Assembly: GCA_018806915.1 (NCBI GenBank)
Contig: JAGKQI010000034.1
Span: 806,001-870,000, forward strand
Origin: Phytophthora colocasiae
Taxonomy: Eukaryota > Oomycota > Peronosporomycetes > Peronosporales > Peronosporaceae
Reading direction: 5' to 3'
DNA: 64,000 bases
Positions 40,798-64,000 of this stretch are shown here, piece after piece. The first letter of the stretch is position 1; each line of letters starts with the position of its first letter. The notes under the pieces were generated by a model. The model had not been told where the DNA came from, did not search any database, and saw nothing but the letters and a program-made list of their open reading frames with translations. Made by a program: the position numbers and the translations under genes.

Positions 40798-40835
40798 GAC
40801 GCTCGCCGGTTTGGAAACCGGTACGAGCCGAGCGT
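40788..40835 (+). promoter_or_regulatory. G1 gag-pol -1 frameshift signal
   Basis: ATG TTA AAC TAG: heptamer G TTA AAC (40788-40794) immediately before the stop. The outer stem pairs 40799-40805 with 40829-40835 (ACGCTCG/CGAGCGT). The inner stem is CCGGTTT/AAACCGG with a two-base gap. A -1 slip continues as LGRSPVWKPV in the protease frame. Confidence 0.85.
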
Positions 40836-43800
40836 TCTGAGTACTGCATCTATGCATATGTGAACAAGAAATCGAGAGATCAAGATAGGGAGAATTCGGA
40901 TCTGCGCGGTAATACATGTAAGTTGCATTCGTATACTGCTAAGATCGCGAGTCTTCACCGGATCGATGAGTTCTCTCGATCTGGTGCGGAAGTGGCTCTG
41001 GATCTCAAGGAAGGAAAGTCCAGGGGGTATTGGAAATACCACGCACCCGGAAAATGGTTCCGCCAAGCCAAGATCTCAGGCAAGATCAATCACGAAAGAG
41101 CGATCTTGCTCCTGGACACTGGCGCCGAGGTATCCATCTTGGATACCACCTTTGCTCGTAAGGTTGGGTGCCACTTTGACACTAGTCAGAGACAGGAGTG
41201 TGTTGGGATCGGTGACAATGTGTACACCACCGAGGGAAGAACGAGGATCAAGATCACGCTTGCGGGATACTTGGTCTACTTTTTCGATATTTGGATCGAG
41301 GGATCTATCCGGGCAAGATGCGATCCTGGGTATGGATTTCATGATCCCGGCTGGAGTCCGGATGGATCTGGCGAAGGGATCGCTGTGCTTACCTAATGAA
41401 GTGGGGATCCCACTTAGTGGTCGCAAGAGATTATACGGGAAGAAGGTAAGATCGGTAAAATTGGAGGAAGATCTACATATCCCAGTTGGGGGATCTGAAG
41501 AGATCGCATCGAGAGTGAAATTATCGGCGACAGAGAAATTGTGGGTGACCAGAGGCGACCAATGGGTACCTACAGTGGTGAATGGACCCGGCCGAAATCG
41601 GTACTTAGTGATCACGAATTTGAGCGAGAAGATTTTACGACTGGATCACAGATTACATGTTGGAATGGTACTTGATCAGGAAAAAGTGCCTCGATTCCCC
41701 GGGTTTGTGTCGATCGGATCCCGACGTTACATGGAGTGGCAGAATCTAGCTCTAGAAGCGACTGTGGACGCAAGACCAGAACCTCAGGAATCCGTGGAGA
41801 TCCCCTTACCGTCGGTCGAACGGCCGACCTACGTTACGCCGCGATCCATACTCCGCCGAGGTGGGGCAACCAGGACCGACCCTGATCCTGCACCAATATC
41901 GACATTGGAACCGCGATCACCGACCGATACGGCCGAAGTCAAGGTCGCATTCATCGATCCCCAACCGGATCCCATGGATACCCCACCGATCACGATCAGT
42001 TCCGACAAGGCCCCGAGTGGCGAAGCTGGGGGCGGTGAGACTGAGACGAATGGTGAGACTGAGACGAATGAGAGCTTGCCAGATCAGGCCCCAGGTCGGA
42101 CAGATCGGACATGTGAAGAGGAAATCGAGGTAAAAACAGAAAAACCAGATTTTCAAATCGAGATCCAACATGTATCCGACGCCGATGCCGTCCCCATGGT
42201 TAAAGACACCCCGATCTTGACAGCCAAGGACGATAGGCTGCGTGATCAATCAACGGATGAACCGGATCCGACATCTCCTGAAGGGATCGAGAACGCTGAT
42301 CAGACCCACTTACACGAAAGTGGCGATTTTTCGGCCGAAGATCTAGCCGATAATCTCGCAGTAGTACCGGAGATCCAGATTTCCACCACTGAAGAAGTCA
42401 GGATCGAAGATCTGCAAGTAGGAAATCCGGGATCGGCTACCCCGGAGGAGATCGAGAAACTTCGACAGATTATTTGGAAGAAGCGACATCTCCTGATCGG
42501 AAAGGGAAACGCACTTCCTCCAGCGGCCAAGGGTGTTATATGCGATATCGACGTGGGTGACGCAAAGCCGATCGCACAACGAGTCCGAAAGGTGGCGCCA
42601 CAGTTCCGCGAGAAAGTATCGGATCTCATCAAAGGACTCCTAGCTGCCAAGATCATCCGGCCATCGACCTCGCCATGGGCATCGCCGATCGTGGTGATCA
42701 TCAAGAAGAACGGTGTAGACATCCGACTATGTATCGATTATCGGCTGGTGAACGGTCTCACGAGGCTGATGATCTACCCAATGCCTCTGATCAATGACCT
42801 GTTAGAAGATCTTGACAAAGTTCTGTGGTACTGTTCATTAGACATGGCAAGAGGATCCTGGGTCGTATCAATGACCGATCGAGCTCGCGCGATCTTAGCT
42901 TTCATCACCCCGTTCGGCCTCTTCGAGTGGAATCGCATGCCGTTCGGGCTGAAGAACGCCCCTCAGATCTATCAACGTCTTGTGGACAACGCCCTATATG
43001 GATTTTTGAAGATCTCCCAGTCAGGGAATACGAAAGACTCTACAGATGTGTTTGAATCAGGGGTCCCGGAAGATCCTGGTCGCCCGTCGGTTCTAGGACG
43101 GAGATCTTACATCGACGATATCTTGATCACGGCTGGAACATGGGATCAAATGTGCGATCGGGTGGAAGACCTATTGGAGGCCTGTGATAAGTGGAATCTC
43201 TCGATCAGTGTGGCGAAGAGCTTCTGGGGCATGGATAAGGTGGAATATCTCGGACACAAAGTGTCGATCGACGGATTGGAGGCAAACCCGAAAGACCTGA
43301 AGTCTCTGACAGATCTGCCATTCCCTGGGTCGCTCCGATCCATGCAATCGTTCCTGGGAAGTTTGAATTACTATAGTCGGTTCATCGAGGATTATGCGAT
43401 CTATGCATCGGTCCTATATGAACTACGTGAAGTGGAGTTCGCAGAACTGAAGAAGCGACCAGATCTACGAAAGATCATGGATAGCATGGACCCGATCAAT
43501 CGAGATCCCGTTGCGCTTAAGTCGAATCAGGATGGATCACCCGACACCTTGACTCAAAAGGGGAATAGTACGCCGGATCTTAACTTGGGGGCGACGCCTC
43601 CCCCCTGTTCAAGCAAGGTCGGAGCCAATCTGGCCCAAAGAGCTGGCGACGAAAGGTGGGGTAGGGCACACAGGGCGTTTACAGCCTTGAAAACCAAGAT
43701 CGCGTCGACCCCGATCCTTCGTCACTTCGACATGACAAAGTTACCCGTGGTGATCGTGTATGCCAGTGACTGGGCGATTTCCGCCGCACTAATGCAGGAA

Positions 43801-46398
43801 CACGACCAGATCTACCACCCGGTCGCGTTTGCCAGCCGAACCTTGAAGACGAACGAGTTAAACAATAATGTTGCCGAAAAGGAGGTGTTGGCTCTACTTC
43901 GGATCCTGGATCTACACTACACCCTGTTGGTGGGACGTCGGATCAAGGTCCTAACCAGACACTTCACGCTTGCCTGGCTGTTCAGGTCTGCCGGCCTTCA
44001 AGGGCGTCTGGGACAATGGTCTGCTCTCCTGTCCCCATGGACACTCGAGATCACGAAGTGTACGAAGGGAGAGGATGAGATACTGGGGGCGATCGCAGCT
44101 AATATAACGCCTAGATCGGAGATCGACGAAGCCCTGATCGCGATCGCGCCACAGAAGGAACCAAGGCGTAAGATCCAGATGCCGATTCCCACCGTAGATC
44201 CAGGCGAGGAGCTATGGGTGGTAAGTTTCGACGGTTCGGCACGCGTGAAACGAGGAGGAGGCGCTTTCAGCGCGATCGTGTGGAGTTTGCCGGAGTGGAA
44301 AGTGATCAAAGCTAGATCAGACTATGCGGAGAGTCTTACTGTCAATGAAGCGGAATACCGTGGGCTCTTGCTAGGTCTTGGCATGATCGCACAGTTAGAA
44401 CGCCGCCGTTTGGTCATTTGTGGCGATTCGAACCTAGTGATCCGACAAGTCCGGGGCGAGATCGACTGCAAGGCGCCAGGATTGACGTTACTGAAACAGA
44501 AGGTGCTAGATCACTTGCGGAATTGGGGAGATCATGAGCTAGTCCATGTGAAGAGAGACTGGCATGGGAGCGCAGACAGCTTGGCGAGTGCCGCGCTGCA
44601 GCGAGGAAGCGGGATCGAGGTCCACGATGAAGCAGATCGGTGTGATCTGGTCACCCTAAATCGGCTTGATGAGGTGTTGATCCCTCGAGTTGAAGATCGA
44701 ACGGTGCAAGTGTCGGCCGTAGCCACGGGTGCAGCCCGAGCGCGACCCGATGCCGCCGTCCTGCGAGAGGAACTGATCCGGGAGATGCGAGTGGATCGGA
44801 TCAGGCGAGCCCAGGACGAGGAGGTCTGGATCGCCGGACTAAAGAAGTACCTGGCTGGGCAGATCGCGGATCTTACTCGAGCCGAGTCTGGATCCTACGC
44901 CAAGATCGCTTCCGAGTACGAGGTAGATGAACAGGATCTGTTGTTTTATTGCCCACCAGGGCCGAGATCAAGAGGTGATCGCGACCGCCTGATGAGACTC
45001 GTGGTTCCAGAAACGCTACAGCAGGATGTCCTCCACCACTACCATACGACTCTGGAAGGGGGACATCAAGGGATCGGACGCACTTATCAGCGGATCCGAG
45101 ATCATTTCCACTGGAGGGGATTATATCGGAGCGTGCAGCGATACGTAGGCGAGTGTGTAGATTGTGAGACCGGGAAGGGGAGACCCACGATCCGGGGCGA
45201 GTCGCCGGGGAATCTGCAGGCGACATACCCATTCCAGATCATAGCAATGGATCACATACCTTCTCTGCCCAGATCCAACAAAGGCAACACCGAACTACTG
45301 ATCTGGGTAGATCTGTTCACGGGATATGTGATCGCAAAGGCTAGTTCCTCCCGATCGGCCCAGACCGTCGCGGAATCTTATGAAGAATGCGTGTTCCGCA
45401 GATTTGGCGCTAGCGAGATGATCAGGCACGATCGAGAGCCGGGCTTCATGTCCGACTTCTTCAGATCGTTTAATAGGATCCTGGGGCAGCGACAACGGGC
45501 GACGATGGCCTACCGACCACAGGCCAATGGGACTGCGGAACGGATGGTGCAAACGGCCACTAGGGCAATCAGGATGTATGTTCAAGATCTCGATCAAAAG
45601 GACTGGGATGAATATGCGGAGAGATTGACTTTCGCCATTAACACGGCTCACGATCGAGATACCCCTCACTATTTGGTACACGGATGGGATCCAAGATCGA
45701 CGTTGGAAGCAACGATCCCGATCGGGTCGACCAGACGCCACGATCGCGATCCAAGACGGTGGAGATATCGCGTTCAGAGATACTACCAGCAGTCGAGAGA
45801 ACAGGTCAACGCTAAGCTGCGAGAGGCGATCGCGGACCGAGCTGATCGGCACAATGAGGATGTCGATCCGCATCAGATCGAAGCTGGATCACGAGTTTGG
45901 CTATACCTAGATCGTGTGAAGGAAGGGTATGCCCGTAAACTCGCCCACCTTTGGCATGGCTCGTTCCGTGTTGCAGAGAAGCTCAATGAATTCACGATCA
46001 AGCTGGAGATCGCGGGCTCTGATTACCATATCTTTCCGGTGGTTCTTGTTTCTAAGCTAAAGCTGGTACGGAATTTCCCAGATCGACCGCGGATCGAGTT
46101 GACGGTAGATGAAGCAGATCGGCTCGATTTCGATGAGATCCTCCTTCCGGAGGACAGTTGGGTTCCAGATCTGGATGCCGATGAGTACGAAGTCGAACGG
46201 ATCTCGGACATGCGAAGTGGGAAACGAACTCGCTACGGCCGGATCTATCGTGAGTTCCTGGTGCACTGGGTCGGTTATGATGAGCCAACGTGGGTCGACG
46301 AAGCTGATCTTAACTGTGGGGCCATATTGAGCGCGTTCCTACGTGACTACGCTAATCGGAACCGGTTCGGCGTGATGCAGTCGCACGAAGAAGTGTAA
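40795..46398 (+). CDS. pol: G1 pol: protease, RT, two RNase H domains, integrase, chromodomain
   Basis: The protease frame carries AILLLDTGAEVSILDTTF (about 41100-41150) and shifts at about 41297 by a 1-bp insertion. From there one frame is open to 46398. Reverse transcriptase is at about 42590-43200 (SPIVVIIKKNGVDIRLCIDY, RSYIDDILIT with YIDD at 43108-43119). The Ty3 RNase H follows at 43700-44060 (VIVYASDWAISAAL). A second, RNase HI-type domain is at 44205-44610 (VSFDGSARVKRGGG, NEAEYRGLLLGL, VICGDSNLVIRQ). The integrase zinc finger is HYHTTLEGGHQG...CVDCETGKG, with core residues MDHIP, RHDREPG and GTAERM. The C-terminal chromodomain is at about 46186-46330 (REFLVHWVGYDEPTWVDE). Dual RNase H is known from plant Tat and oomycete Ty3/Gypsy elements. 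Confidence 0.95.
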
Positions 46399-46750: not shown

Positions 46751-49423
46751 TTACGGAGAAGCGGCCCCAGCGGGAGGAGGATTGAACTTGCCGATAACTC
46801 GGGGAATCCTGGTAGCGGGATGGTTGACCGGGTCTTGCCGATACTGGTTACGCCACGGATCCGCCTCGTCACACTCCTCCAGAGCCTCGATCAGGTTCGC
46901 CGGCTCTGGGACGTTCGCGTTGGGATCCGCCAGGTTGGCACGCCGAGAGACCACGCCGGGATACCAACGAACCACATCCACCGACGGAATGGGGAGGTGA
47001 AGGAAGAACGGATCCAGCAGGATGTCGAGATCGAACCACTGATTGCGCATTATGGGGGGGAAGGAGGCGAGGAATTGGCGCCAAGCAGACCCAGCCCGAC
47101 TCCGCCGGGCCTTGCGAGCAACGTAATACCGCTGCAGTTCAAGATCCGCATCCTGCATGGCAGAGGTGATCTCGAAGTTGTGGGTGGCCTCCCAAAATGC
47201 TTGACGGTGCCGTTCCTCCAGAACGCGATAGGTGGCGGCCACGGCCGCGAGGGGTGTTCCCTCCCTCTCATGCAGATCGAGGTCGAACGTAAGGGGACCC
47301 GGGTTCGCGAAGTCGTTCCACGGCTCCAGAGCCAGCAGATCAAGCACGTTCACGCCCGTGATCAACTCGTGGAGGTATTCGGTGCGGGGGGTCGGTGCAG
47401 GCCCAGCCTGTATCTGGGAAGGGAACAGCCAACCCGAAGGAATCAACAACCGTTTGCCCAGAGAACTGGCGATCAGACCCACGATGGAATACTGCCCGAT
47501 CACCTGCGGATCCCACGGCACGATGTCAGCGGCCGCGAAGGTACGCTGCCGATCGTACCCTGGAATGAAAGAGGCGACCGGGAACAGGGGTGGTCGGAGC
47601 CCGGGGGGCGAGGAACCGCCGGAAGGAGGTGGCGGCGGTGACGGGGAACCCGGAGGTGATCCTGGAGACGGCGGGCCTGATCCATCTGGAGATGGGCTTG
47701 AGCCGTCCGGAGACCCCGATCCACGGGTGCCAGAAGGTCCGGATCTCGGAACCTGACCGGACTCGCGCCGGTGCGTCGAGATAGACCGTTGGCGGCCCAT
47801 GTGTAGAGTCTCGTCCTCCTCGGAGTCCTCCGCCTCGTTGGAACGTTCCGATTCGGCTTCAGAACTAGTTCCATTGCTGGGTTCTGGGCTTTCGTCCTCT
47901 TCGGACGGCGATGAGAATGGGTGCTGGGGATCGTAGTCGGAGTCTTCCTCGTCCTCATCCGGCGAATCACCCTCGGCGGGAAGCGATCCGGACTGATCCG
48001 TAGGCGCTGGGGTCGAATCAGGGCTGGAGTGTCGGTTTCCTCCTCCGGCTTGCCCAGAAGCTTGATCCGCCAACAGATCCAGCGGACTCGCCGTTGATCC
48101 TGCCGGGGTCGGGACCACCGTGGGTGTGACAGGCTGGGTTGACCCGGGAGCTTCGGTAGCTGCAGGTTTTAGATCACGGGGAGCTGAGGTGCTCCGAGCC
48201 GGACGCTTGCGTGAGGAAGGAGGAACGGCCGGGGAAGCGGAGGCGCTTCGAGATCTTTTGGTGGCACGAGCTGCCCGTCGATCCGCGATCCACGAGGACA
48301 ACCGAGCAGAGGAATCCTCGGCGTGGTGCAGCTGTTGCTCGGCTTCGGCATAATCAGCGTCCAGCTCTTGGTGAGCCTGTCGAAGCTCCGCGTTCTGTCG
48401 CTGGAGTTGGTCGAGTTCCTGTGTCGCCGCATCCCGGGCGGAACGAGCCACGTCAAGGTCTGCGAGGGCAGACAAACGATCTTGGGTGGCATCGTCCAGG
48501 TCGACCTGGATTCGATCACGGTCTGCCGTTACTCGATTGAGATCTTGCATTGCCTGATCCCGGTCGAGGCGGGCCTGACCCAGGTCTGCGACGGCCTGAT
48601 CCCGCTCGGCAATGGCGGCACGATGCTGGACGGAGAGCTGCTCCAAGGCGAGGTGTGCCCGAGCAAGTTCAGCCTGGTGATCCTCTGCCTCGCGTTCCAG
48701 GTACGCGACTTCGGCTCGAGCGGCGAGCAACTCCGCTTGGGTCCGCGTCAACTCCAACCTCAACCGAGCTTCCTCTGCTGTCGGGCGAGCCTGATCAGCA
48801 GGCATGGCCATAGCCGCTTGTGGACCTTGGGAGGAATCGTTCCTCTGCCAGCGATCAAGGCTACGCTGAGTGAGGGTCAGGTCATGACGCACGGCGGCGA
48901 GCTCCCGTTCGCGATCCTGAAGCTCATCCCGGAGTTCAATCTCCGTCTCCCCGGCTATGCGAAGTTCGGCCAGCCGGAAGTCGAGATCCTCGAGCGCAGA
49001 GTCTAGCCGCGCCTGGATCCGGGCCAGTCGCTGCTCAGACTCCCGTCGTTCGGCGTCGTGCTGGGCCCGCTGATCCTGCAAGGCGGCGATCGCGTCCCCA
49101 CCGATAGCATCTCCGGTTCCCGATCGCAGATGAGCGATTTCGGCGTTCAGCCGCAAAATCTCCTCCGCTTGGTCGTCCCGGAAGCGCTCCATATCCTCCA
49201 TGTCGGATCGCAACCGGCGAACGGTGTCGTCCAGGTGGTCCCGATCGCGACTCAAGGTCTCGCGCATCCGTTGGCTATGGGCCAGCCTCGCTTGCAAGGT
49301 GACCAGCTCAGGGTTTACCCCGGGGGTTGAGAAGCGGGAGGCCGTGGATCGGGCGGATCGGAGCGAGTGCTCGCTCGAGGGCGTTCTCGGCGTCAAGGGG
49401 GGCGAGGAAGGCGGATCGGACAT
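46751..49423 (-). CDS. G1 antisense third gene: coiled-coil protein with conserved C-terminal domain
   Basis: Minus-strand frame of about 890 codons from ATG 49423 (an upstream in-frame ATG at 49507 adds 28 codons), opposite to gag-pol and ending 353 nt after it. Residues about 30-400 are a long heptad coiled coil rich in Arg/Asp/Glu/Leu (RDRDHLDDTVRRLRSDMEDM). Next are a Ser/Pro/Glu-rich low-complexity region and a Gly/Ser/Pro tract. The last 260 residues or so form a conserved domain: IPGYDRQRTFAAADIVPWDP, PLTFDLDLHEREGTPLA, LQRYYVARKARRSRAGSAW, LLDPFFLHLP and EADPWRNQY. G2 carries a homologous protein. No transmembrane segment, zinc knuckle or polymerase motif is evident. The ATG is 104 nt from the 3' LTR, so a promoter in the LTR reading outward-in is likely. 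Confidence 0.8.
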   Translation of the reverse strand: MSDPPSSPPLTPRTPSSEHSLRSARSTASRFSTPGVNPELVTLQARLAHSQRMRETLSRDRDHLDDTVRRLRSDMEDMERFRDDQAEEILRLNAEIAHLRSGTGDAIGGDAIAALQDQRAQHDAERRESEQRLARIQARLDSALEDLDFRLAELRIAGETEIELRDELQDRERELAAVRHDLTLTQRSLDRWQRNDSSQGPQAAMAMPADQARPTAEEARLRLELTRTQAELLAARAEVAYLEREAEDHQAELARAHLALEQLSVQHRAAIAERDQAVADLGQARLDRDQAMQDLNRVTADRDRIQVDLDDATQDRLSALADLDVARSARDAATQELDQLQRQNAELRQAHQELDADYAEAEQQLHHAEDSSARLSSWIADRRAARATKRSRSASASPAVPPSSRKRPARSTSAPRDLKPAATEAPGSTQPVTPTVVPTPAGSTASPLDLLADQASGQAGGGNRHSSPDSTPAPTDQSGSLPAEGDSPDEDEEDSDYDPQHPFSSPSEEDESPEPSNGTSSEAESERSNEAEDSEEDETLHMGRQRSISTHRRESGQVPRSGPSGTRGSGSPDGSSPSPDGSGPPSPGSPPGSPSPPPPPSGGSSPPGLRPPLFPVASFIPGYDRQRTFAAADIVPWDPQVIGQYSIVGLIASSLGKRLLIPSGWLFPSQIQAGPAPTPRTEYLHELITGVNVLDLLALEPWNDFANPGPLTFDLDLHEREGTPLAAVAATYRVLEERHRQAFWEATHNFEITSAMQDADLELQRYYVARKARRSRAGSAWRQFLASFPPIMRNQWFDLDILLDPFFLHLPIPSVDVVRWYPGVVSRRANLADPNANVPEPANLIEALEECDEADPWRNQYRQDPVNHPATRIPRVIGKFNPPPAGAASP

Positions 49424-49517
49424 TTCGAGAGAGTGGTGGCGCTTGAACGACTTGTGTTCCAGGTGGTGAATGTGGAAATAAACCCGAAGTGAGCTGCGGC
49501 AGCTCAACTTACGTGCT

Positions 49518-49526
49518 GGGGGCGGA
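49518..49526 (+). other. G1 polypurine tract
   Basis: GGGGGCGGA immediately upstream of the 3' LTR, the expected plus-strand primer. It lies in the leader of the antisense gene. Confidence 0.65.
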
Positions 49527-50922
49527 TGTGGTGAAGCGGACGAAAAATGTTTCCCGGAGAGGCGATGTCAGCCACGAACCCGAATAGAGTCGGAACGAGC
49601 GACAGGGGGGACCTGTGATCGCCAGATCTGGGTCGAATCAGACGAAGGTACGATGGGTCCCGCCGGGAACAGGCAACGGAGACACCGGCGAAGAAGCAGG
49701 TGGAGCGGTGTTCGTGGGTGATCCGAATCCTGCCGTGGTGTTCGTGGGTGATCCGAATCCTGCCGGAGGAAGAATGGGGAAATCAAGGATGTTCTCGCGC
49801 GATCAACGATGACGGGGCCCCAAGCGAGCATGATCAGCTTACCCTGGCGCCCCGAAGCCTCTAACAGCACGATCCAACTTCCCCGGGCGGCGACGAAGCG
49901 AGATCACGCAAGATCGCGCAATGATCCTCTCCCGTATAAGTACGAGATCAGCTCCGGATCAAGGTCAACCCCAGGCGCGACGCAGACTCTTCTTGTGGCC
50001 TGATCCGGATTCTTTGAAGGATCACCAAGCGGGATCAGGCAGTGATCAAGTCCCGATTAAGTACGAGATCAAGCTTCGGTTAAGTGCGAGATCAAGCTTC
50101 GGTTAAGTGCGAGATCAAGCTTCGGTTAAGTACGAGATCAAGCTTCGGTTAAGTGCGAGATCAAGCTTCGGTTAAGTACGGAATCGGCTCAAGATCAGGG
50201 TTAGGGGAACCAAGCTAGGGATCAGCTCTGTAGCCAGTGTCATGTGGTCGTAGGATAGTAAATCAGGATGGGATTAGTAGGCATAGGAATAACCATAAAC
50301 AGACTCGAATTTGCCCTGAACCACTCAAGTGTCTTCGCTACGCCTGGAACCGGGAACTACATTGGCCCTACAAGCGTCAGGAAGGTAAGGATACGTGACC
50401 TAGTATAGCGGTTAAGTCTGGATAATATATTGGCCAGCTTTGCCCTATCTAGTGAACTATCCTTTAAGTGCATACATCGGATCGGAAGGAATTGGTTGTT
50501 TAGCCTAAGGATCCCGTCGAATCTCGCCCCCTCAAGACCCCCGCTATCGGAAGCGGAAAACAACGAAAGGAAGGGACTGAATCCCGAACATTGGACTATT
50601 GGAAGACCTGGATCAAGAACCAGGCACCCGGATCAAGGCTCGAGAACTCGCCTACGACCGGGATCAAGTACCCCGAGGTGGAGTGAAGAACTTCCACGCC
50701 GCCTCAAACCCCTGCGTCACCCAAGACCTTCTTCTCGTCCCAAGACATCTTCAGAAGTTACCTGGAAGAGCGTAACCCGCCTACCGACGGGTACACAAGG
50801 TGAACACTACACGCAACAAGATCACGGATCATCGGGGGACCCCCTCCGTTAGTCGGTGTCTGGGCGCAAGTGGCGATCGCGATCGGCCTCAACCAGATTT
50901 TGGCCAGATCCGCTCCACCACA
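49527..50922 (+). repeat. G1 3' LTR
   Basis: 1396 bp, same ends as the 5' LTR. It has five copies of the 23-bp repeat at about 50058-50180 where the 5' LTR has four, which accounts for the length difference. Confidence 0.95.
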
Positions 50923-51063
50923 GGATCTTTCTGTTTTCAGCGGCGCCTCCGTCGATCCAACATTCGTAGGCACTTCTTCCCCTTGTTCTTCTTTTACCTT
51001 GACATCTTCTTGGGACTCACGGTGATATCCGAAGTCACCAGAAGATCCGGGCACGCGCACCAT
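50923..51063 (-). pseudogene. gag: G4 leader, primer site and gag start
   Basis: Minus-strand sequence matching the G1 interval 32583-32710: primer site TGGTGCGCGTGCCCGGAT at 51045-51062 (minus), then leader and the first gag codons (VGSTEAPLKTERS). It is interrupted by G1 after GGAT and continues at 31208-30790. Confidence 0.8.
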
Positions 51064-52687: not shown

Positions 52688-54022
52688 TGTGGTGAAGCGC
52701 GAATAAGAAATCCGAGAAAAGGCAACGTCAGGCCCAGAGAGAGTCGGATCAAGCGACAGGGGCCTCTGGCGAAGCAAGATGTCAGTTGATGACCCCAGAT
52801 TGCGCGAACGATGGCTGACGAATGGATCCAGATCGATGTTCGTCTGGATCTCGCCAGCGATGAATGGATGGCGTCTTGGTCGAGTGAGACTAAGTGATTG
52901 GAGAACCCGCCGTGCGGTCCCGCGTGGCGGCTCAGGGTCGGAGGAGAAAAGGGCGCCTTGCCTGAGATCGCATGAGAAGGAGATCAAGGCGGCAGAGGGT
53001 CGGGATCGGTGTGACTTTTTGGTGGGCCGGTGACAACATAACCGTGAGATGCTGCCGAGGGGACCTGATGGCAGTGTTAGTCGCATGGGGAGTGGTGATC
53101 AAGTCTGGGAAGCTCAAGACCTGGAATGTTGACGACGCAGGCACGCGAGATCAAGTATGAAGGCTGCTGATCGGGATCATTGTTCAAGACGGTGGACCAA
53201 GATCGATGACCGAGATGGTTGATCGAGATCGGCTGATCGCCAGATCGGCTGATCGCCAGATCGGCAGATCGAGATCGCGATCAGGGGTTAGGTGAGATCA
53301 AGATCGAAGATCGGAAGGGCAGCTGTGTAGCCGGATGTCAGGTAATCGTAAGATAGCAGATGAGGATGGGGCTAGTAGACATAGGAATAACCATAAACAG
53401 AATCGAATTTGCTCTGGACCTCACAAGTGCCTTCATCCAAGACTGGGACCGGGAATTACATTGGCCCACCAGTATCAAGAAGGTAAGGAGAAGAGATCTA
53501 GCATAGAGGTTAATTCTGGATAATACATTGGCCAGTTTTACCCTATCTAGTGATCTATCCTTTACGCGCGAACTACGGATCGGAAGGAATTGGCTGCTTG
53601 GCCTGACGATCTCGTCGACTCTCAACCCATCAAGACACCCGCTATAGGAAGCGGCAAGCATCGTAAAGGAAGGGATCAGATCCCCAACATTGGACCTTTG
53701 GAAGACCTGGATCAAAGACCAGGCGACTGGATCAGGGCTCGAGAACTCGCCTACGACCCGGATCAACCCCTCCGAGGTAGAGTGAAGTATTCCCACGCTA
53801 TCTCATCACCCCTGCGTCACCCAAGACATTCTTCTCGCCCCAAGACATCTTCAGAAGTTACCTGGAAGAGCGTAACCCGCCTACCGACGGGTACACAAGG
53901 TGAACACTACACGCAACAAGATCACGGATCATCGGGGGACCCCCTCCGTTAGTCGGTGTCTGGGCGCAAGTGGCGATCGCGATCGGCCTCAACCAGATTT
54001 TGGCCAGATCCGCTCCACCACA
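52688..54022 (+). repeat. G2 5' LTR
   Basis: 1335 bp, TGTGGTGAAGCGCG...GCTCCACCACA. The first 1.1 kb is clearly diverged from the G1 LTR, while the last 200 bp or so are almost identical to it. Several GATCGCCAGATCGGC-type repeats lie near 53215-53285. Confidence 0.9.
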
Positions 54023-54129: not shown

Positions 54130-56174
54130 TTGACGGAGGCACCACTGAAAACGGAAAGATCCACAGATCAGCAGAGTTCTGGGAGGATCTCTACTGACAG
54201 GCACGAGGCAGACCTGGATCGCAATCCAGATCTTGAAGAAAAACCTCGAATTCCTCCCAAGGCCCCTTCGAGGGCCACCGCGGATCTCGATGAAAATCGA
54301 GATCCGCACACGAGCGATAAGGAATCAGCAAAGCTGAAACCTAATCTGCTCACCAAGTCCACTGTTGCCTCAAGATCGACCAAGAAAAAGAAGATCAAGA
54401 GCACCCGGACGAAATTGAAAGCTCCAGACTCAGAGCCAGAAGATATGATCAGCCCAGGATCGACGATTACTAAGGACGCGATCGAGCAGGCCTATTACAG
54501 GAAGATGCTAAGCGAGACCTTGCTTAACGATCCCGTTCTTACGATCATACAAGTCCGCCAGATCGGTAACCTCACCGGCCCAGTGTCGAAACCCCGGATT
54601 AGCTCGGACCGCCTGCAGACTGGATCGTCATGCTACGCGTCAGCGACCTCGGAACCAGATTCCGACAGCCCGAGAAGGCTGCAACGCATGTCGTTAGGCC
54701 CCTCCGGTGCCAAATTCCTGAAATCGCGTATGAAGAAACAAGATACACGATCGGTGGCCACGAAACTGGAGGCTAAGACACCTGATCAGCAAGAAAATCG
54801 CCGGACCCGGACAGACCAGACCGCGCCGACGACTAATTCCACTGGATCGAGCAACAAGTTGGACGACTACTTTCAAATGGCGATGGATCGTTTCTTAAAA
54901 GAACGGAATCTCGCGACACCCCGATCGCCGATCAAAGGGGAGTTGGATGTTGAAATGGAGTCCGTTACGGCCTCGGATCCGGATGCATGGAAATACGATC
55001 CGGACGATATGGGCATACCAAGTTCCGGTGGACAGATGTCGAGCCGAGCAGCGATCGCATCCGCGGCGATCGGTCAAGGAGGATCGTCGATGATCCAGCG
55101 GGTCCGGATCTCAGCGATCTCGGATCTGAAAGATTTTGCGGGTAAAGATCTGGACGAAGATCGCGCTCGGGCCTGGATCAGTAAGGTCAAGTCAGCGTTC
55201 CAGCGTGATCAGGCTACGGAAGAAGAAAAATGCCTCACGTTTGCAGATCTGATGGTGGGACCGGCAAAGAACTGGTACAGAAGCTCAGTCGAACGACGAA
55301 AACCAAGTGGGCGGATCTGCTGGACAGTTTCCAGACCCAGTATTGTGGGTTGGGTATGTCGGTCGCGTGGCAATACTATCACGCTCGCAAGCGATCGGAA
55401 GAAACTCCCCTTGATTACCTCTACCGGCTCAACGTGGCGGCTTTACGTGCTAGACTGAAGATCAAGGATGGGAGCCCTAAGGCCCGCCGGGAACATGTAG
55501 ACCACTACATCGAGACATTGGGAGATCCGGAGTTAGCTGATCGGCTGACCCTACTCCGACTGAGCGACGTCGATGAACTGGAGGAGGTACTTCGTGCCCG
55601 GGAACGGGCGAAAAGCAGACAACGTAAATCTGCGTTCGGATCGAAGTACAGACAAAAGGCACCGGCCAGTGCCCCGGCGGCACCCACCCGAGCGGTGGTA
55701 CGGGCGATCCAAACCCAAGATCCGAGCTCGGAATCAGAGGAAGTATCCGGATCGGACGGATCCGATTCTGAAGGCGATCTCCGGAGGATATATCTTGCCG
55801 CGTCGGAAGACAAGCAAATCGGCGCTGGGGGCGTTCCCCACCAACAGGATCAGTCGCGATCGCAGGTGAACGCGCAAGATCGAGGCCGGATCGCGGATCG
55901 CAGGGGTACGTCAGACCACGATCGAGGTCGCTGTTCACACTGTGGATCGCGGAAGCATACGGATCTGGACTGCTGGAGACGTCTAACCTGTGAAAAGTGC
56001 GGGAAGAGGGGTCACCCAACGGATCGCTGTCTGTATACCTGCCGTGGTTGTGGGGAGATCCATGAAGCTGGAGAATGCCCCATGGAAGAATTCTACAACC
56101 AGATCCGCAAGTGGTACGACCCGACCCGACATGCCGGATTGTTTCCCGAGAAGGTGGAAAAGATGTTAAACTAG
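54130..56174 (+). pseudogene. gag: G2 gag with one frameshift
   Basis: The N-terminal and central gag frame runs from 54130 to about 55280 (ISDLKDFAGKDLDEDRARAW, CLTFADLMVGPAKNWYR) and then loses one base. The rest is in the frame 55230-56174 (LSRTTKTKWADLLDSFQTQY). Zinc-knuckle boxes CSHCGSRKHTDLDC, CEKCGKRGHPTDRC and CRGCGEIHEAGEC are intact. The true initiation codon is uncertain because a TAG precedes 54130 in the leader. G1 has the same 1-bp loss, while G3 has an extra base and an open frame. Confidence 0.9.
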
Positions 56175-56212
56175 GACGCTCGCCGGTTTGGAAACCGGTA
56201 CGAGCCGAGCGT
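56165..56212 (+). promoter_or_regulatory. G2 gag-pol -1 frameshift signal
   Basis: Heptamer G TTA AAC at 56165-56171 followed by TAG. Outer stem 56176-56182 with 56206-56212; inner stem 56183-56189 with 56192-56198. Same sequence as G1. Confidence 0.85.
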
Positions 56213-57649
56213 TCTGAGTACTGCATCTATGCATATGTGAACAAGAAATCGAGAGATCAAGATAGGGAGAATTCGGATCTGCGCGGTAATACATGTAAGT
56301 TGCATTCGTATACTGCTAAGATCGCGAGTCTTCACCGGATCGATGAGTTCTCTCGATCTGGTGCGGAAGTGGCTCTGGATCTCAAGGAAGGAGAGTCCAG
56401 GGGGTATTGGAAATACCACGCACCCGGAAAATGGTTCCGCCAAGCCAAGATCTCAGGCAAGATCAATCACGAAAGAGCGATCTTGCTCCTGGACACTGGC
56501 GCCGAGGTATCCATCTTGGATACCACCTTTGCTCGTAAGGTTGGGTGCCACTTTGACACTAGTCAGAGACAGGAGTGTGTTGGGATCGGTGACAATGTGT
56601 ACACCACCGAGGGAAGAACGAGGATCAAGATCACGCTTGCGGGATACTTGGTCTACTTTTTCGATATTTGGATCGGGGATCTATCCGGGCAAGATGCGAT
56701 CCTGGGTATGGATTTCATGATCCCGGCTGGAGTCCGGATGGATCTGGCGAAGGGATCGCTGTGCTTACCTAATGAAGTGGGGATCCCACTTAGTGGTCGC
56801 AAGAGATTATACGGGAAGAAGGTAAGATCGGTAAAATTGGAGGAAGATCTACATATCCCAGTTGGGGGATCTGAAGAGATCGCATCGAGAGTGAAATTAT
56901 CGGCGACAGAGAAATTGTGGGTGACCAGAGGCGACCAATGGGTACCTACAGTGGTGAATGGACCCGGCCGAAATCGGTACTTAGTGATCACGAATTTGAG
57001 CGAGAAGATTTTACGACTGGATCACAGATTACATGTTGGAATGGTACTTGATCAGGAAAAAGTGCCTCGATTCCCCGGGTTTGTGTCGATCGGATCCCGA
57101 CGTTACATGGAGTGGCAGAATCTAGCTCTAGAAGCGACTGTGGACGCAAGACCAGAACCTCAGGAATCCGTGGAGATCCCCTTACCGTCGGTCGAACGGC
57201 CGACCTACGTTACGCCGCGATCCATACTCCGCCGAGGTGGGGCAACCAGGACCGACCCTGATCCTGCACCAATATCGACACTGGAACCGCGATCACCAAC
57301 CGATACAGCCGAAGTCAAGGTCGCATTCATCGATCCCCAACCGGATCCCATGGATACCCCACCGATCACGATCAGTTCCGACAAGACCCCGAGTGGCGAA
57401 GCTGGGGGCGGTGAGACTGAGACGAATGAGAGCTTGCCAGATCAGGCCCCAGATCGGACAGATCGGACATGCGAAGAAGAGATCGAGAAAAAAACAGAAA
57501 AACCAGATTTCCAAATCGAGATCAAACATGAATCCGACGCCGATGCCGTCCCCAGGGTTAAAGACACCCCGATCTTGACAGCCAAGGACGATAGGCTGCG
57601 TGATCAATCAACGGATGAACCGGATCCGACATCTCCTGAAGGGATCTAG
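56172..57649 (+). CDS. pol: G2 pol N-terminus: protease and acidic linker
   Basis: Entered by -1 frameshifting, and open upstream to 56075 in that frame. The protease core has AILLLDTGAEVSILDTTF (about 56480-56530), the flap region ITLAGYLVYFFDIWIGDLSG and QDAILGMDFMIPAG (56690-56735). A conserved block of unknown role follows (KLWVTRGDQWVPTV, FPGFVSIGSRRYMEWQN), then an acidic Pro/Thr/Asp/Glu linker. A GAG-to-TAG change at 57647-57649 stops the frame; G1 reads through here. This is the best protease copy in the window. Confidence 0.9.
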
Positions 57650-58891
57650 AACGCTGATCAGACCCACTTACACGAAAGTGGCGATTTTTCGACCGAAGAT
57701 CTAGCCGATAATCTCGCAGTAGTACCAGAGATCCAGATCTCCACCACCGAAGAAGTCAGGATTGAAGATCTGCAAGTAGGGAATCCGGGATCGGCTACCC
57801 CGGAGGAGATCGAGAAACTTCGACAGATTATTTGGAAGAAGCGACATCTCCTGATCGGAAAGGGAAACGCACTTCCTCCAGCGGCCAAGGGTGTTATATG
57901 CGATATCGACGTGGGTGATGCAAAGCCGATCGCACAACGAGTCCGAAAGGTGGCGCCACAGTTTCGCGAGAAAGTATCGGATCTTATCAAAGGACTCCTA
58001 GCTGCCAAGATCATTCGGCCATCGACATCGCCATGGGCATCTCCGATCGTGGTGATCATCAAGAAGAACGGTGTAGACATCCGACTATGTATCGATTATC
58101 GGTTGGTGAACGGCCTCACAAGGCTGATGATCTACCCGATGCCCCTGATCAATGACCTGCTAGAAGATCTTGACAAGGTTCTGTGGTATTGTTCATTAGA
58201 CATGGCGAGTGGATTCTGGGTTGTATCAATGACCGATCGAGCTCGCGCGATCTCGGCTTTCATCACTCCATTCGGCCTTTTCGAGTGGAATCGCATGCCG
58301 TTCGGGCTGAAGAACGCTCCCCAGATCTATCAACGCCTTGTGGACAATGCCCTATATGGATTTCTGAAGATCTCCCAGTCCGGAGATGTGGAAGGCTCTG
58401 CGGATGTGTTCGAATCAGGGATCCCGGAAGATCCCGGTCGCCCGTCGGTGCTAGGACGGAGATCATACATCGACGATATCCTGATCACGGCTGGATCATG
58501 GGATCAAATGTGCGATCGGGTGGAAGGCCTATTGGAGGCCTGTGATAAGTGGAATCTCTCGATCAGTGTGACAAAGAGCTTCTGGGGCATGGATAAGGTG
58601 GAATATCTCGGACACAAAGTGTCGATCGATGGATTGGAAGCAAACCCGAAAGACCTGAAGTCTCTGACGGATCTACCATTCCCTGGATCACTCCGATCCA
58701 TGCAATCGTTCCTTGGAAGTTTGAATTACTATAGTCGGTTCATCGAGGATTATGCGATCTATGCATCGGTCCTATATGAACTACGTGAGGTGGAGTTCGC
58801 AGAACTGAAGAAGCGACCAGATCTACGAAAGATCATGGATAGCATGGACCTGATCACTCAAGATCCCGTCGCGCTTAAGTCGGATCGATAG
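57650..58891 (+). CDS. pol: G2 pol: reverse transcriptase
   Basis: The same frame continues after the nonsense codon. It carries VRKVAPQFREKVSDLIKGLL, SPIVVIIKKNGVDIRLCIDY, LPFGL-type MPFGLKNAPQIYQRLV, and the catalytic RSYIDDILIT (YIDD near 58466-58477). An insertion of about 30 residues sits between the QIYQRLV helix and YIDD, as in G1. The thumb/connection includes VEYLGHKVSIDGLEANPKDL and SLNYYSRFIEDYA. Stops appear in the variable linker at 58889-58891, before RNase H. Confidence 0.9.
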   Translation, partial: NADQTHLHESGDFSTEDLADNLAVVPEIQISTTEEVRIEDLQVGNPGSATPEEIEKLRQIIWKKRHLLIGKGNALPPAAKGVICDIDVGDAKPIAQRVRKVAPQFREKVSDLIKGLLAAKIIRPSTSPWASPIVVIIKKNGVDIRLCIDYRLVNGLTRLMIYPMPLINDLLEDLDKVLWYCSLDMASGFWVVSMTDRARAISAFITPFGLFEWNRMPFGLKNAPQIYQRLVDNALYGFLKISQSGDVEGSADVFESGIPEDPGRPSVLGRRSYIDDILITAGSWDQMCDRVEGLLEACDKWNLSISVTKSFWGMDKVEYLGHKVSIDGLEANPKDLKSLTDLPFPGSLRSMQSFLGSLNYYSRFIEDYAIYASVLYELREVEFAELKKRPDLRKIMDSMDLITQDPVALKSDR

Positions 58892-58940
58892 ATCACTAGA
58901 TATCCCGACTCAAAGAAGCGATAGTACAACGGATCCTGAC

Positions 58941-60521
58941 TTGGGGGCGATGTCTTCACCCTGTTCAAGCGAGATCGGAGCCAACCTGGGCCTAAAGACT
59001 GGTGACGAGAGGTGGGGTAGGGCATACAGGGCATTTACAGCCTTGAAGACCAAGATCGCGTCGACCCCGATCCTTCGCCACTTCGACACGACGAAGTTAC
59101 CCGTGGTGATCGTGTACGCTAGTGACTGGGCGATTTCCGCCGCACTAATGCAGGAACACGACCAGATCTACCACCCGGTCGCGTTTGCCAGCCGAACCTT
59201 GAAGACCAACGAGCTGAATTATAATGTTGCCGAAAAGGAGGTGTTAGCTCTACTTCGGATCTTGGATCTACACTACACCTTGTTGGTGGGACGTCGGATC
59301 AAGGTCCTAACCCGACACTCGACGCTTGCCTGGCTGTTCAAGTCTGCCGGCCTCCAAAGACGTCTGGGACAATGGTCTGCTCTTCTGTCCCCGTGGACAC
59401 TCGAGATCACGAAGTGTACGAAGGGGGAGGATGAAATACTGGGGGCGATCGCAGCTAACATAACGCCCCGATCGGAGATCGACGAAGCTCTGATCGCGAT
59501 CGCGCCGCGAAAGGAGCCAAAACGTCGGATCCAGATGCCGATCCCCACTGTAGACCCAGATGAGGGGTTGTGGGTTATAAGTTTCGACGGATCGGCACGC
59601 GTGAAACGAGGAGGAGGCGCTTTCAGCGCGATCGTGTGGAGTTTACCAGAGTGGAAGGTGATCAAGGCTAGATCGGATTATGCTGAAAGCCTCACTGTCA
59701 ATGAAGCGGAATACCGTGGACTCTTGCTAGGTCTTGGCATGATCGCACAGTTAGAACGCCGCCGTTTGGTCGTTTGTGGCGATTCGAATCTAGTGATCCG
59801 ACAAGTCCGGGGCGAGATCGACTGCAAGGCGCCAGGATTGACGTTACTGAAACAGAAGGTGCTAGATCACTTGCGGAATTGGGGAGATCATGAGCTGGTC
59901 CATGTGAAGAGAGACTGGAATGGGAGCGCAGATAGCTTGGCGAGTGCCGCGCTGCAGCGAGGAAGCGGGATCGAAGTCCACGATGAGACAGATCGATGCG
60001 ATCTGATCACCCTGAATCGGCTTAATGAGGTGTTGATCCCTCGAGTTGAAGATCGATCTGTGCAAATGTCGGCAGTAGCCACGCGTGCAGCCCGAGCGCG
60101 ACCTGGCGCCACTGTCTTGCGAGAGGAACTGATCCGGGAGATGCGGGTTGATCGGATCAGGCGAGCCCAGGACGAGGAGGTCTGGATCGCAGGACTAAAG
60201 AAGTACCTGGCTGGGCAGATCGCGGATCTTACTCGAGCCGAATCCGGATCCTACGCCAAGATCGCCTCCGAGTATGAGGTAGATGAACAAGATCTGTTGT
60301 TTTACTGCCCACCAGGGCCGAGATCAAGAGGTGATCGCGATCGCCTGATGAGACTTGTAGTTCCAGAAACGCTACAGCAGGATGTCCTCCACCACTATCA
60401 TACGACTCTGGAAGGAGGACATCAGGGGATCGGACGCACTTATCAGCGGATCCGAGATCATTTCCACTGGAGGATTATATCGGAGCGTGCAGCGATACGT
60501 AGGCGAGTGTGTAGATTGTGA
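58941..60521 (+). CDS. pol: G2 pol: two RNase H domains and integrase zinc finger
   Basis: First RNase H (Ty3 type): VIVYASDWAISAALMQEHDQ, FASRTLKTNELNYNVAEKEV. Second, RNase HI-like: VISFDGSARVKRGGGAFSAI, LTVNEAEYRGLLLGLGMI, VVCGDSNLVIRQ and VKRDWNGSADSLAS, giving the D-E-D-D set. The integrase N-terminus follows (HYHTTLEGGHQGIGRTYQRI) until a 2-bp deletion near 60476 shifts the frame before the C-C half of the zinc finger. Confidence 0.9.
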   Translation: MGAMSSPCSSEIGANLGLKTGDERWGRAYRAFTALKTKIASTPILRHFDTTKLPVVIVYASDWAISAALMQEHDQIYHPVAFASRTLKTNELNYNVAEKEVLALLRILDLHYTLLVGRRIKVLTRHSTLAWLFKSAGLQRRLGQWSALLSPWTLEITKCTKGEDEILGAIAANITPRSEIDEALIAIAPRKEPKRRIQMPIPTVDPDEGLWVISFDGSARVKRGGGAFSAIVWSLPEWKVIKARSDYAESLTVNEAEYRGLLLGLGMIAQLERRRLVVCGDSNLVIRQVRGEIDCKAPGLTLLKQKVLDHLRNWGDHELVHVKRDWNGSADSLASAALQRGSGIEVHDETDRCDLITLNRLNEVLIPRVEDRSVQMSAVATRAARARPGATVLREELIREMRVDRIRRAQDEEVWIAGLKKYLAGQIADLTRAESGSYAKIASEYEVDEQDLLFYCPPGPRSRGDRDRLMRLVVPETLQQDVLHHYHTTLEGGHQGIGRTYQRIRDHFHWRIISERAAIRRRVCRL

Positions 60522-61759
60522 GACCGGGAAGGGAGACCCACGATCCGGGCGAGTCGCCGGGGAATCTGCAGGCGACATACCCATTCCAGATCATAGCAAT
60601 GGATCACATACCTTCTCTGCCCAGATCCAACAAAGGCAACACCGAACTACTGATCTGGGTCGATCTGTTCACGGGATATGTGATCGCAAAGGCCAGTTCC
60701 TCCCGATCGGCCCAGACCGTCGCGGAATCTTATGAAGAATGCGTGTTCCGCAGATTTGGTGCTAGCGAGATGATCAGGCACGATCGAGAACCGGGTTTCA
60801 TGTCCGACTTCTTCAGATCGTTCAATAAGATCCTGGGGCAGCGACAACGGGCGACGATGGCCTACCGGCCGCAAGCCAACGGGACTGCGGAACGGATGGT
60901 GCAAACGGCGACTAGGGCGATCAAGATGTATGTTCAAGATCTCGATCAGAAGGACTGGGATGAATACGCGGAGAGACTGACGTTCGCCATTAACACGGCT
61001 CACGATCGGGTTCGGGGAGATACCTCTCATTACCTGGTACATGGATGGGATCCGAGATCGACGTTGGAGGCAACGATCCCGATCGGATCGACCAGACGCC
61101 ACGATCGCGATCCAAGACGGTGGAGGTATCGGGTTCAGAGATACTACCAGCAGTCGCGAGAGCAGGTCAACGCTAGACTACGAGAGGCGATTGCAGATCG
61201 AGCCGATCGGCACAATGAGGATGTCGATCCGCATCAGATCGAAGCTGGATCACGAGTTTGGCTATACCTAGATCGTGTGAAGGAAGGGTATGCACGTAAA
61301 CTCGCTCACCTTTGGCACGGCCCGTTCCGTGTTGCAGAGAAGCTCAACGAATTCACGATCAAGCTGGAGATCGCGGGATCTGATTACCATATCTTCCCAG
61401 TGGTCCATGTTTCTAAGCTAAAGCTGGTGCGGAATTTTCCGGATCGACCGCGGGTCGAGTTGACTGTGGATGAAGCAGATCGGCTAGATTTCGATGAGAT
61501 CCTCCTTCCAGAGGACAGTTGGGTCCCAGATCTGGATGCCGACGAGTACGAGGTCGAACGGATCTCGGACATGCGAAGTGGGAAACGGACTCGCTACGGC
61601 CGGATCTATCGTGAATTCCTGGTGCACTGGGTCGGTTATGATGAACCAACTTGGGTCGATGAAGCTGATCTTAACTGTGGAGCCATACTGAGCGCGTTCC
61701 TACGTGATCATGCTAACCGAAATCGGTTTGGCGTGATGCAGTCGCACGAAGAGGTGTAG
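60518..61759 (+). CDS. pol: G2 pol: integrase core and chromodomain
   Basis: Restored frame after the deletions near 60476-60550. Core motifs AMDHIPSLPRSNKG, MIRHDREPGFMSDFF and QANGTAERMVQTATRA give D-D-E. The GPY/F-like region includes RKLAHLWHGPFRVAEKLNEF and FPVVHVSKLKLVRNFPDRP. The chromodomain ends the protein (YEVERISDMRSGKRTRYGRI, REFLVHWVGYDEPTWVDE). It is nearly identical to G1. Confidence 0.95.
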   Translation: MRPGRETHDPGESPGNLQATYPFQIIAMDHIPSLPRSNKGNTELLIWVDLFTGYVIAKASSSRSAQTVAESYEECVFRRFGASEMIRHDREPGFMSDFFRSFNKILGQRQRATMAYRPQANGTAERMVQTATRAIKMYVQDLDQKDWDEYAERLTFAINTAHDRVRGDTSHYLVHGWDPRSTLEATIPIGSTRRHDRDPRRWRYRVQRYYQQSREQVNARLREAIADRADRHNEDVDPHQIEAGSRVWLYLDRVKEGYARKLAHLWHGPFRVAEKLNEFTIKLEIAGSDYHIFPVVHVSKLKLVRNFPDRPRVELTVDEADRLDFDEILLPEDSWVPDLDADEYEVERISDMRSGKRTRYGRIYREFLVHWVGYDEPTWVDEADLNCGAILSAFLRDHANRNRFGVMQSHEEV

Positions 61760-62133: not shown

Positions 62134-63801
62134 TCAGGGAGTCCCAGGAGGTGTAGGTGGAGCAGGCGGGTTAAACTTGTTTTCGAGCCGTGGGATCTGC
62201 CGGGACGGGTGATCTGCCGGCCGATCGCGGTAATGGTTGCGCCAAGGGTCCTCCTGATCGCATTCTGCCAACGCAGAGATCAGATCGGTGGGCTCCGGTC
62301 GGTTCAGAGTCGGCTGGGCCAAGTTAGCCATTCGGGAGGCCGATCCGGGGTACCAGTATACCCGATCACGGATAGTAGGGAAGTGCAGGAAGTAGGGATC
62401 GAGCAGAAGATCGATGTCCGCCCACATCGCCCTCATCATGGGCAGGAATCGTCCCAACAGCAGCCGCCAACGTTCTCCGGTACGGCTACGCCGTTGCCGA
62501 CGCTCGAGGTAATACCGACGGAGATCAGGATCAGCTTCATACATCGCCTTCGTGATCTCGAGATAATGGGTCGATTCCCAGTAGGCCTGCAGGTGATCTG
62601 ACTCGAAGGCGGCGTAGGCATCCGCGATCTGCCCCAGCAGCGTTCCAGCACGACGATGTAGACCGAGATCGAAGGTGAGGGGGGCCGGTCGGTTGCGGAG
62701 CACCTCCCAAGGTCGGGTAGCAAGTAGGGCCTGCACGTTGGGCCCAGTGATCAGGCCAACCAACCAACCGACCCCAGCTCGGGAAGGGCGATTAGCCGGT
62801 GATCTCGCTGGGTAAAGGAATCCGGGAGGTAGCAGCAGCCTCTTGGACAATGTGGAGAGGATCATACCGACGATCGCCAAAGTTCCGACGAACATCGGAT
62901 CCCACGGGAAGACATCACCAGCCGCAAACTGCCGGACGTTCGCATATCCGGGAATAGACGAGCTGATTGCGAACAGGGGAGGGTGCAGCTGGGGGCGTGG
63001 CGAGCCGCCGGGAGAGCCGCCACCCGGAGATCCCCCACCGGGAGGGCTCCCGCCAGCTGGACTACCCCTCGGGGACCCCTGAGGAGAAGTGATCAGAGTC
63101 TGTGGGGAACTGCCGCCCGGAGGTGTCGGCTGCGCCGGAGGCGTCGATGGAGCAGGCCCCCCTTGATCACCGGATGCTGGAGGAGGATTTCCATGCCGGC
63201 GGTGCCACGACAGCGATCGGAGTATCGTAGCCCGAAGAGCGTCGTCGGATCCAGCGCCAGAATCCTCCGCGTCATCGTCATGCTCTGGATCGGGTTTACG
63301 TTTGGACCGATCCGAGCCACCCTTCTTCGGGGAAGGTGCTTCCACGGTCACTTGCGAGGTGGCCTGGGTGCGATCTGCTTCCTCCGCATCCGGCCCAGTC
63401 GGGATCGCGGGTTCAGGACCCAGATCGAAGGGGTCTGGGCTTTCCTCGTGCTTTTCTTCGAGCTCGGTCGCCTGGGCCTGGCCACCGGGTTGGTCTCCAG
63501 CGGGAACATCAGGTGGGGCCGCGTCGTGATCGGCCGGGGGAGGCTCCGTCCGCGAGGTCTTGTGCGGGGGCGATGTAGCAGGAGATGGGGGCGGACTGAG
63601 AGCACGTTTGACCCCCCGTTCATCTTGAGCAGCGCGGAGCCGAGACACCATTTCGGTCAGGACGTTGGTGGTCGCCATTACGTCACCTTCTGCCTGATCG
63701 TAGTTCTCCTGCAATGCCTGAATGCTCGCTTCTAACTCCTGCACTTCGGCATGGGTACCGATCAGATCATCCTCTACGACAAACAGAATATGAGTGATCA
63801 T
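62134..63801 (-). CDS. G2 antisense third gene, C-terminal part
   Basis: 555-codon minus-strand frame homologous to the C-terminal 60% of the G1 antisense protein. A short helical N-terminus is followed by a Pro/Glu/Ser linker, a Gly-Ser-Pro repeat tract (GGSPPGGGSPGGGSPGGSPR) and a conserved domain of about 260 residues: SIPGYANVRQFAAGDVFPWDP, PLTFDLGLHRRAGTLLG, LRRYYLERRQRRSRTGERW, LLDPYFLHFP and QEDPWRNHY. Spacing between blocks is kept while many residues differ from G1, so this is a conserved protein and not chance. The frame probably continued upstream into 63820-64000 before a lesion. Confidence 0.8.
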   Translation of the reverse strand: MITHILFVVEDDLIGTHAEVQELEASIQALQENYDQAEGDVMATTNVLTEMVSRLRAAQDERGVKRALSPPPSPATSPPHKTSRTEPPPADHDAAPPDVPAGDQPGGQAQATELEEKHEESPDPFDLGPEPAIPTGPDAEEADRTQATSQVTVEAPSPKKGGSDRSKRKPDPEHDDDAEDSGAGSDDALRATILRSLSWHRRHGNPPPASGDQGGPAPSTPPAQPTPPGGSSPQTLITSPQGSPRGSPAGGSPPGGGSPGGGSPGGSPRPQLHPPLFAISSSIPGYANVRQFAAGDVFPWDPMFVGTLAIVGMILSTLSKRLLLPPGFLYPARSPANRPSRAGVGWLVGLITGPNVQALLATRPWEVLRNRPAPLTFDLGLHRRAGTLLGQIADAYAAFESDHLQAYWESTHYLEITKAMYEADPDLRRYYLERRQRRSRTGERWRLLLGRFLPMMRAMWADIDLLLDPYFLHFPTIRDRVYWYPGSASRMANLAQPTLNRPEPTDLISALAECDQEDPWRNHYRDRPADHPSRQIPRLENKFNPPAPPTPPGTP

Positions 63802-63819
63802 GGTCAGGTGGAGGGGGAT

Positions 63820-64000
63820 CTAGACTATATGCGCACCTAGACGAGTGGATCGTTGTCGCTCGGCGCTGAGATCCGCCTGTGCTCTGTCACGATCTGCGAA
63901 CGCTTGGTCTCGTTCCACGAGTAGGCGATCCCGCTCCGAAGTGACTCGGTTCAGTTCGGAGTTAGCGTGGGCGAGTTGATCGGTGGCTAGGTCACGTTCA
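63820..64000 (-). pseudogene. G2 antisense gene, coiled-coil part (partial)
   Basis: The minus strand reads ERDLATDQLAHANSELNRVT, SERDRLLVERDQAFADRDRA and so on to a TAG at 63820-63822. It matches the coiled coil of the G1 antisense protein (DLNRVTADRDRIQVDLDDAT). It is cut by the window edge and separated from 63801 by a lesion or unrecognised intron. Confidence 0.6.

Follow-up and report, generated by a model that had tools for sequence, protein, structure and literature searches.

Two Ty3/Gypsy elements of Phytophthora colocasiae, here called G1 and G2, carry a long third gene on the strand opposite gag-pol, in the interval from pol to the 3' LTR, and patterns of substitution indicate that this antisense frame encodes a real, selected protein. 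Both elements lie in a 64,000-nucleotide stretch of contig JAGKQI010000034.1 (the window), and all positions below are counted from its first letter, those above 64000 being window-equivalent positions read from adjoining contig sequence. In G1 the minus-strand frame is open throughout 46751-49507, and from the ATG at 49423 it encodes 890 codons, with no intron needed, in a gene (46751..49423, defined by the open frame and by selection) that sits tail to tail with pol. An earlier note on this DNA had described a frame of about 890 codons opposite gag-pol in G1, which is present as described, and a homologue in G2 at 62134-63801. The proteins are homologous, with 42% identity over 488 columns (E 8e-105 in a single comparison) and the conserved blocks named in the note in the same order, but the extent given for G2 did not hold, as its gene reaches window-equivalent 64722 and includes a candidate intron.

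The G1 C-terminal domain had at least 139 matches in the 92.5-Mb assembly (135 of 623 candidates scored), and 121 of the 139 listed lack an in-frame stop. Given these numbers, and substitutions that follow the antisense frame, we conclude that the G1 frame is not a chance reading. The earlier note had asked whether any other element carries the frame intact, and many other copies proved to be open. We also compiled 131 matches to the 3' end of G1 pol, found independently of the antisense gene (131 of 1824 candidates scored). The gene lies downstream of pol on the opposite strand at no fewer than 107 of these 131 listed pol ends, 70 with a G1-type and 37 with a G2-type domain, counting domains up to 3.3 kb downstream of the pol end, start to start. 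None of the 131 has a listed same-orientation copy near pol, and 24 have no listed antisense domain nearby. By these counts, position and orientation beside pol are fixed in this genome. Such regularity argues against a passenger origin, whether as a host gene that the element captured or as what is left of a nested element, as do the existence of two cassette types, the selection described below, and the lack of a recognised host homologue among the protein matches, which are known as proteins alone. A domain without a family match could have a distant origin, as such a passenger might, but we regard this explanation as improbable.

To assess selection we used 30 rows per family, made up of the window copy and the 29 protein matches ranked next below it, and treated variants common to two or more copies as shared. 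Shared-variant omega was 0.14 in the G2 domain (6 nonsynonymous to 21 synonymous), 0.26 in the G1 domain (15 to 30), 0.28 in the G2 linker, 0.33 in the middle part of G1, which is almost wholly outside the search query, and 0.33 in G2 exon 1, also outside the query (27 of 30 rows; the value was 0.82 before removal of three non-homologous copies). Because copies were chosen by protein score these ratios are biased downward, the parts outside the query being less affected. Singletons are expected to be nearer neutral than shared variants; their omega was also low, at 0.40-0.54 in both domains, the G1 middle part and G2 exon 1, and was 0.99 in the G2 linker. Pairwise dN/dS among G1-type C-terminal domains averaged 0.17 (range 0.09-0.74, 45 pairs) in a set of G1 and nine divergent copies with 78-92% identity (L070, which has two stops, was left out). 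The dN/dS comparison proposed in the earlier note thus agrees with its claim of a selected protein, since this mean and the shared-variant range of 0.14-0.33 are both far below 1. Selection is weaker on the antisense gene than on pol, where shared-variant omega at the pol end was 0.09 in G1 and 0.04 in G2 (28 of 30 rows, two copies dropped).

Of the six frames, the antisense one had the lowest omega in both families; four of the other five were at or above 0.93 in both, and the fifth, at 0.29 and 0.43, has third positions in common with the antisense frame. This result bears on the alternative that the antisense transcript itself is functional, with convergent transcription producing dsRNA by which the element limits its own copy number and the frame arising as a by-product. 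The whole of the gene is antisense to the presumed genomic RNA, and such a role has been discussed for plants in the accessible portion of one study (PMC7264820). However, amino-acid constraint is strongest in the antisense frame, the pairwise dN/dS is low, and the domain is kept across species while linkers differ. We therefore think it unlikely that the transcript is the sole functional product, although RNA and protein may both act.

The elements that host this gene are Chronos-like, an assignment made from pol domain order, which matches the description of Chronos in PMC5348765. G1 pol (40864..46398, plus strand) encodes by Pfam a reverse transcriptase (RT), RNase H (RT_RNaseH, residues 957-1057), a second RNase H (RVT_3, residues 1122-1244), integrase and a chromodomain (PF00385, residues 1775-1825), the last at 26.0 bits against a cut-off of 25.1. 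The same order was found in G2, where pol (56075..61759, plus strand) is divided among several frames that encode protease, RT, RNase H, second RNase H, integrase and a chromodomain scoring 30 bits. G2 also has a gag region in two frames (54130..56174, plus strand), with CCHC motifs recognised by eye in the second, and a 5' LTR at 53326..54022 (plus strand, start approximate) that is 99.7% identical to its 3' LTR at window-equivalent ~65487-66182, outside the window. G1 is 5'-truncated; its similarity to G2 begins within the gag region, at 39864, corresponding to 55240 in G2. Its 3' LTR, located by G1/G2 comparison, is at 50229..50922 (plus strand, start approximate). The antisense gene occupies the region of ~3.8 kb from pol to the 3' LTR, and before the LTR there is a tandem repeat, of 23 bp in 5.4 copies in G1 (50057..50180, plus strand) and of 16 bp in 2.9 copies in G2.

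Several neighbouring arrangements were observed. Just before the G2 5' LTR, the sequence at 53280-53325 corresponds to the 3' end of the internal region of a G2 element, and two tandem elements may therefore share this LTR. The end of the G1 3' LTR is adjoined, at 50923-52238, by an inverted LTR that has flanking internal sequence on either side, which makes a large palindrome-like arrangement. At 36909-39816 there is a tandem duplication of a stretch of about 1.4 kb, its period being ~1475 bp and its identity 99-100%; judged by eye from its coding text, this unit looks Copia-like.

The G2 gene is read on the minus strand as two exons. Exon 1 spans window-equivalent 63837-64722, of which 63837..64000 is inside the window, and exon 2, containing the linker and C-terminal domain, spans 62134..63773, as indicated by protein alignment and shared-variant omega. 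One in-frame stop separates them, and it is covered by a candidate 63-nt GT-AG intron at 63774..63836 on the same strand (GTGCGC...CTGAC...TAG). Conceptual splicing yields a continuous 841-aa protein. Exon 1 is in the same frame and starts MSQQGSDPGS where G1 starts MSDPPSSPP, and a P. megakarya protein (P0010, AAQLDDDL) aligns across the exon junction (STRLEDDL). Of 29 rows (28 loci plus the window copy), all have the acceptor AG and 28 the donor GT (one has AT), and donor position 3 is a purine in 29 of 29. Deletions of 1-2 nt occur inside the candidate intron in five of these rows. Among 25 G2 copies, a set that excludes four with unrelated or rearranged parts (L010, L022, L034, L037), frameshift-size deletions per kb numbered 3.19 in the intron, an excess that rests on five deletions, 0.42 in exon 2 and 1.36 in exon 1, at a similar substitution density of 15-17 per kb across all three. 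Many G2 copies have evidently decayed, as exon 1 has 30 frameshift-size deletions in 11 of the 25. The candidate intron would be readable only on the antisense strand; as the genomic RNA has the opposite orientation, the segment would not be spliced out of that RNA and could thus survive retrotransposition. The 63-nt segment offers a simple transcript readout, spliced or not.

Comparison of G1 and G2 along their length suggested a history of exchange. DNA identity in 250-column blocks is 88-100% from gag to near the end of pol, falls to 71% in the block over the pol stop, and is 52-66% onward to the LTR, where the first ~540 nt are 79-89% identical and the last ~180 nt are 100% identical. Pol fragments are 94-97% identical as protein, consistent with the near-identity of pol reported in the earlier note. 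Synonymous divergence (dS) is 0.03 in the protease region, 0.20 in RT, 0.25 in RNase H, 0.23 in integrase and 0.36 at the pol end, and in the antisense domain it is 2.97, which is saturated; the contrast indicates that the sequence from the end of pol to the LTR has a separate, older history. A tree of 60 pol ends is divided by a single branch (support 99/99) into the two cassette types, and thus one cassette exchange suffices. The earlier note had proposed that the antisense gene either evolves much faster than pol or was exchanged. With saturated antisense dS beside low pol dS and a close LTR, the sequence comparison favours cassette exchange over fast evolution: the lineage of G1 or of G2 would have received a different version of the antisense gene by recombination between pol and the LTR. 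Template switching during reverse transcription would fit both the identical LTR tail and the identity in the 5' part. The gag-protease part (39864-42100 in G1, 55240-57470 in G2) is 96-100% identical, and the low protease dS relative to that of RT through the pol end (0.20-0.36) suggests a second, more recent exchange on the 5' side.

The longer members of the protein family have in common a low-complexity start, a charged stretch poor in proline, basic clusters, a linker that is acidic or rich in serine, and the C-terminal domain. In G1 the charged stretch (residues ~35-400; 48224..49321, minus strand) is coiled-coil-like by composition and profile matches; coiled-coil PDB chains match the N-terminal part of the protein profile, and its SMC matches are generic and far below curated cut-offs. 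The conserved C-terminal domain, of which 270 aa were modelled (46784..47593, minus strand), is recognised from alignments and the model, and contains the motifs IPGY, WEATH, RRSRAG..W and DLDILLDPFFLH. Family alignments show nearly invariant positions in W, WE..H, R...R and D.D..LD..FL..P, and alignment with proteins of other species shows that the domain is kept while linkers differ. The AlphaFold2 model is mostly helical (pLDDT 78.3, pTM 0.78) and had no significant match in PDB or BFVD; the G1 and G2 domains had no match in Pfam at E up to 10, and nothing in these family and fold searches (Pfam, PDB, BFVD) indicated an activity. A protein search yielded relatives in three genera of Peronosporales, known as proteins alone: eight named Phytophthora species (P. 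megakarya, P. palmivora, P. cinnamomi, P. fragariaefolia, P. ramorum, P. sojae, P. rubi and P. nicotianae), Nothophytophthora, and Peronospora matthiolae. Many Phytophthora "hypothetical proteins" share the C-terminal domain, and their annotation could be changed to that of element genes.

Retroviruses have env where these elements have their third gene, and the long coiled-coil-like part of its product might also suggest a structural or transmission protein of an Env-like or Gag-like kind. We consider such a role very unlikely, since the antisense orientation is unlike that of env, G2 has a separate gag region with CCHC motifs, and no clear transmembrane segment was evident in 13 proteins, where the highest 19-residue Kyte-Doolittle mean was 0.87-1.65 and G2 was borderline. 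Pfam found no CCHC knuckle in the antisense proteins (25 of 29 families shown), nor in the G2 gag frame where CCHC motifs are visible. The chromodomain in pol, the basic clusters, and the SMC-type coiled-coil matches, although below cut-off, would be compatible with a targeting or chromatin factor that, together with the chromodomain, steers integration or shields copies from silencing; the coiled-coil matches are generic, and we regard this role in particular as improbable.

Candidate promoter elements were found upstream of the gene. INR-like motifs, as defined by YCAYTYY in the accessible part of PMC3599244, occur at -69 and -80 in G1 and G2; the motif in G1 is TCACTTC at 49486..49492 (minus strand), 69 nt upstream of the antisense ATG. 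A 24-bp block (49515..49538, minus strand) is identical upstream of the two ATGs, at -115 and -138 in G1 and G2, within otherwise mostly unalignable sequence. It is exact in 22 of 30 G2 loci, and the genome has 266 sites with at most one mismatch, compared to 0 for a reversed control; among G2 copies the block is not visibly more conserved than its surroundings. We consider the block and the INR-like motifs to be candidates for promoter elements. The block also repeats every 3913 bp in a manner resembling a tandem array (C9:2223572, 2227485 and 2231398; C5:624515 and 628428), and a 701-base sample from there contained a degraded G1-type antisense start.

Taken together, these features suggest a self-contained accessory gene in the form of an exchangeable cassette, expressed from an antisense mRNA near the 3' LTR and encoding a nuclear coiled-coil protein, an explanation that we consider reasonably probable. 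Transcription would start close to the 3' LTR, near the 24-bp block that lies 115-138 nt before the ATG, and the antisense mRNA would form independently of the genomic RNA. The product would self-associate through its coiled coil and enter the nucleus by means of its basic clusters, where the C-terminal helical domain would act on element DNA, the integration complex or chromatin. The outcome would be regulated expression or aid to the nuclear steps of transposition.

Most descriptions of antisense genes in LTR retrotransposons concern flowering plants, and what these genes do is treated as unsettled in the accessible parts of two studies (PMC7264820, PMC11963269). Within the literature searched, which covered part of the journals and mostly below full-text level, no antisense gene of oomycete retrotransposons was found. 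For Chronos, the accessible text of PMC5348765 gives the pol order RT, RNase H, second RNase H, integrase, chromodomain; G1 and G2 have both the dual RNase H (by the Pfam RVT_3 match) and a chromodomain after integrase. A figure legend there names ORF1 and ORF2, and the word "antisense" is absent from the main text as accessible. Boty of Botrytis cinerea is an element with an antisense ORF. HBZ has a zipper and is spliced. The deltaretrovirus proteins HBZ (HTLV-1) and APH-2 (HTLV-2) are nuclear and are expressed from an antisense promoter in the 3' LTR, as summarised in parts of PMC7264820 and PMC11963269; in contrast, the oomycete protein is much larger and its promoter would be in the internal region near the LTR.

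Grande, RIRE2 and Retand are all members of the Tat lineage. Like the plant aORF-3R of these elements (Grande gene23, RIRE2, Retand TRP28), the oomycete gene is between pol and the 3' LTR in antisense orientation, and both are present in most copies (PMC7264820 and PMC11963269, in part). According to the accessible text on Retand, 97% of clusters have a TRP28 antisense protein and some show SMC-like matches; about half of the elements contain tandem repeats in this region, and the pol-3' LTR region measures 2.9-6.6 kb, compared to ~3.8 kb here (PMC11963269). Grande gene23 is described, in partial sources, as having its own antisense promoter and a nuclear product. The oomycete elements differ in their hosts, in a pol with a chromodomain, and in the candidate intron of G2. 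The antisense genes of Tat and of the oomycete elements have no detected sequence relation: TRP28 (PF04195) was not found in four oomycete antisense proteins at Pfam E up to 10, nor in 42 members among the 25 of 29 families shown. Tandem repeats precede the 3' LTR in both. A second, archaeal-like RNase H was gained independently by plant Tat and oomycete Chronos, according to the part of PMC10508981 that was accessible. It is conceivable, though we put it forward tentatively as the less likely case, that an antisense coiled-coil gene, as an exchangeable cassette, and a dual RNase H are parts of one convergent solution, which may concern, for example, reverse transcription or integration at a step in the nucleus; such a convergence of Tat and Chronos antisense genes was not stated in the literature searched, mostly below full-text level. 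By analogy, the oomycete gene resembles the known plant aORF arrangement and is of the same kind in another lineage. It thereby provides an independent comparison, in which the gene is under strong selection, stands beside pol in more than 100 copies in one genome, and shows both a candidate antisense intron and a natural swap of cassettes.
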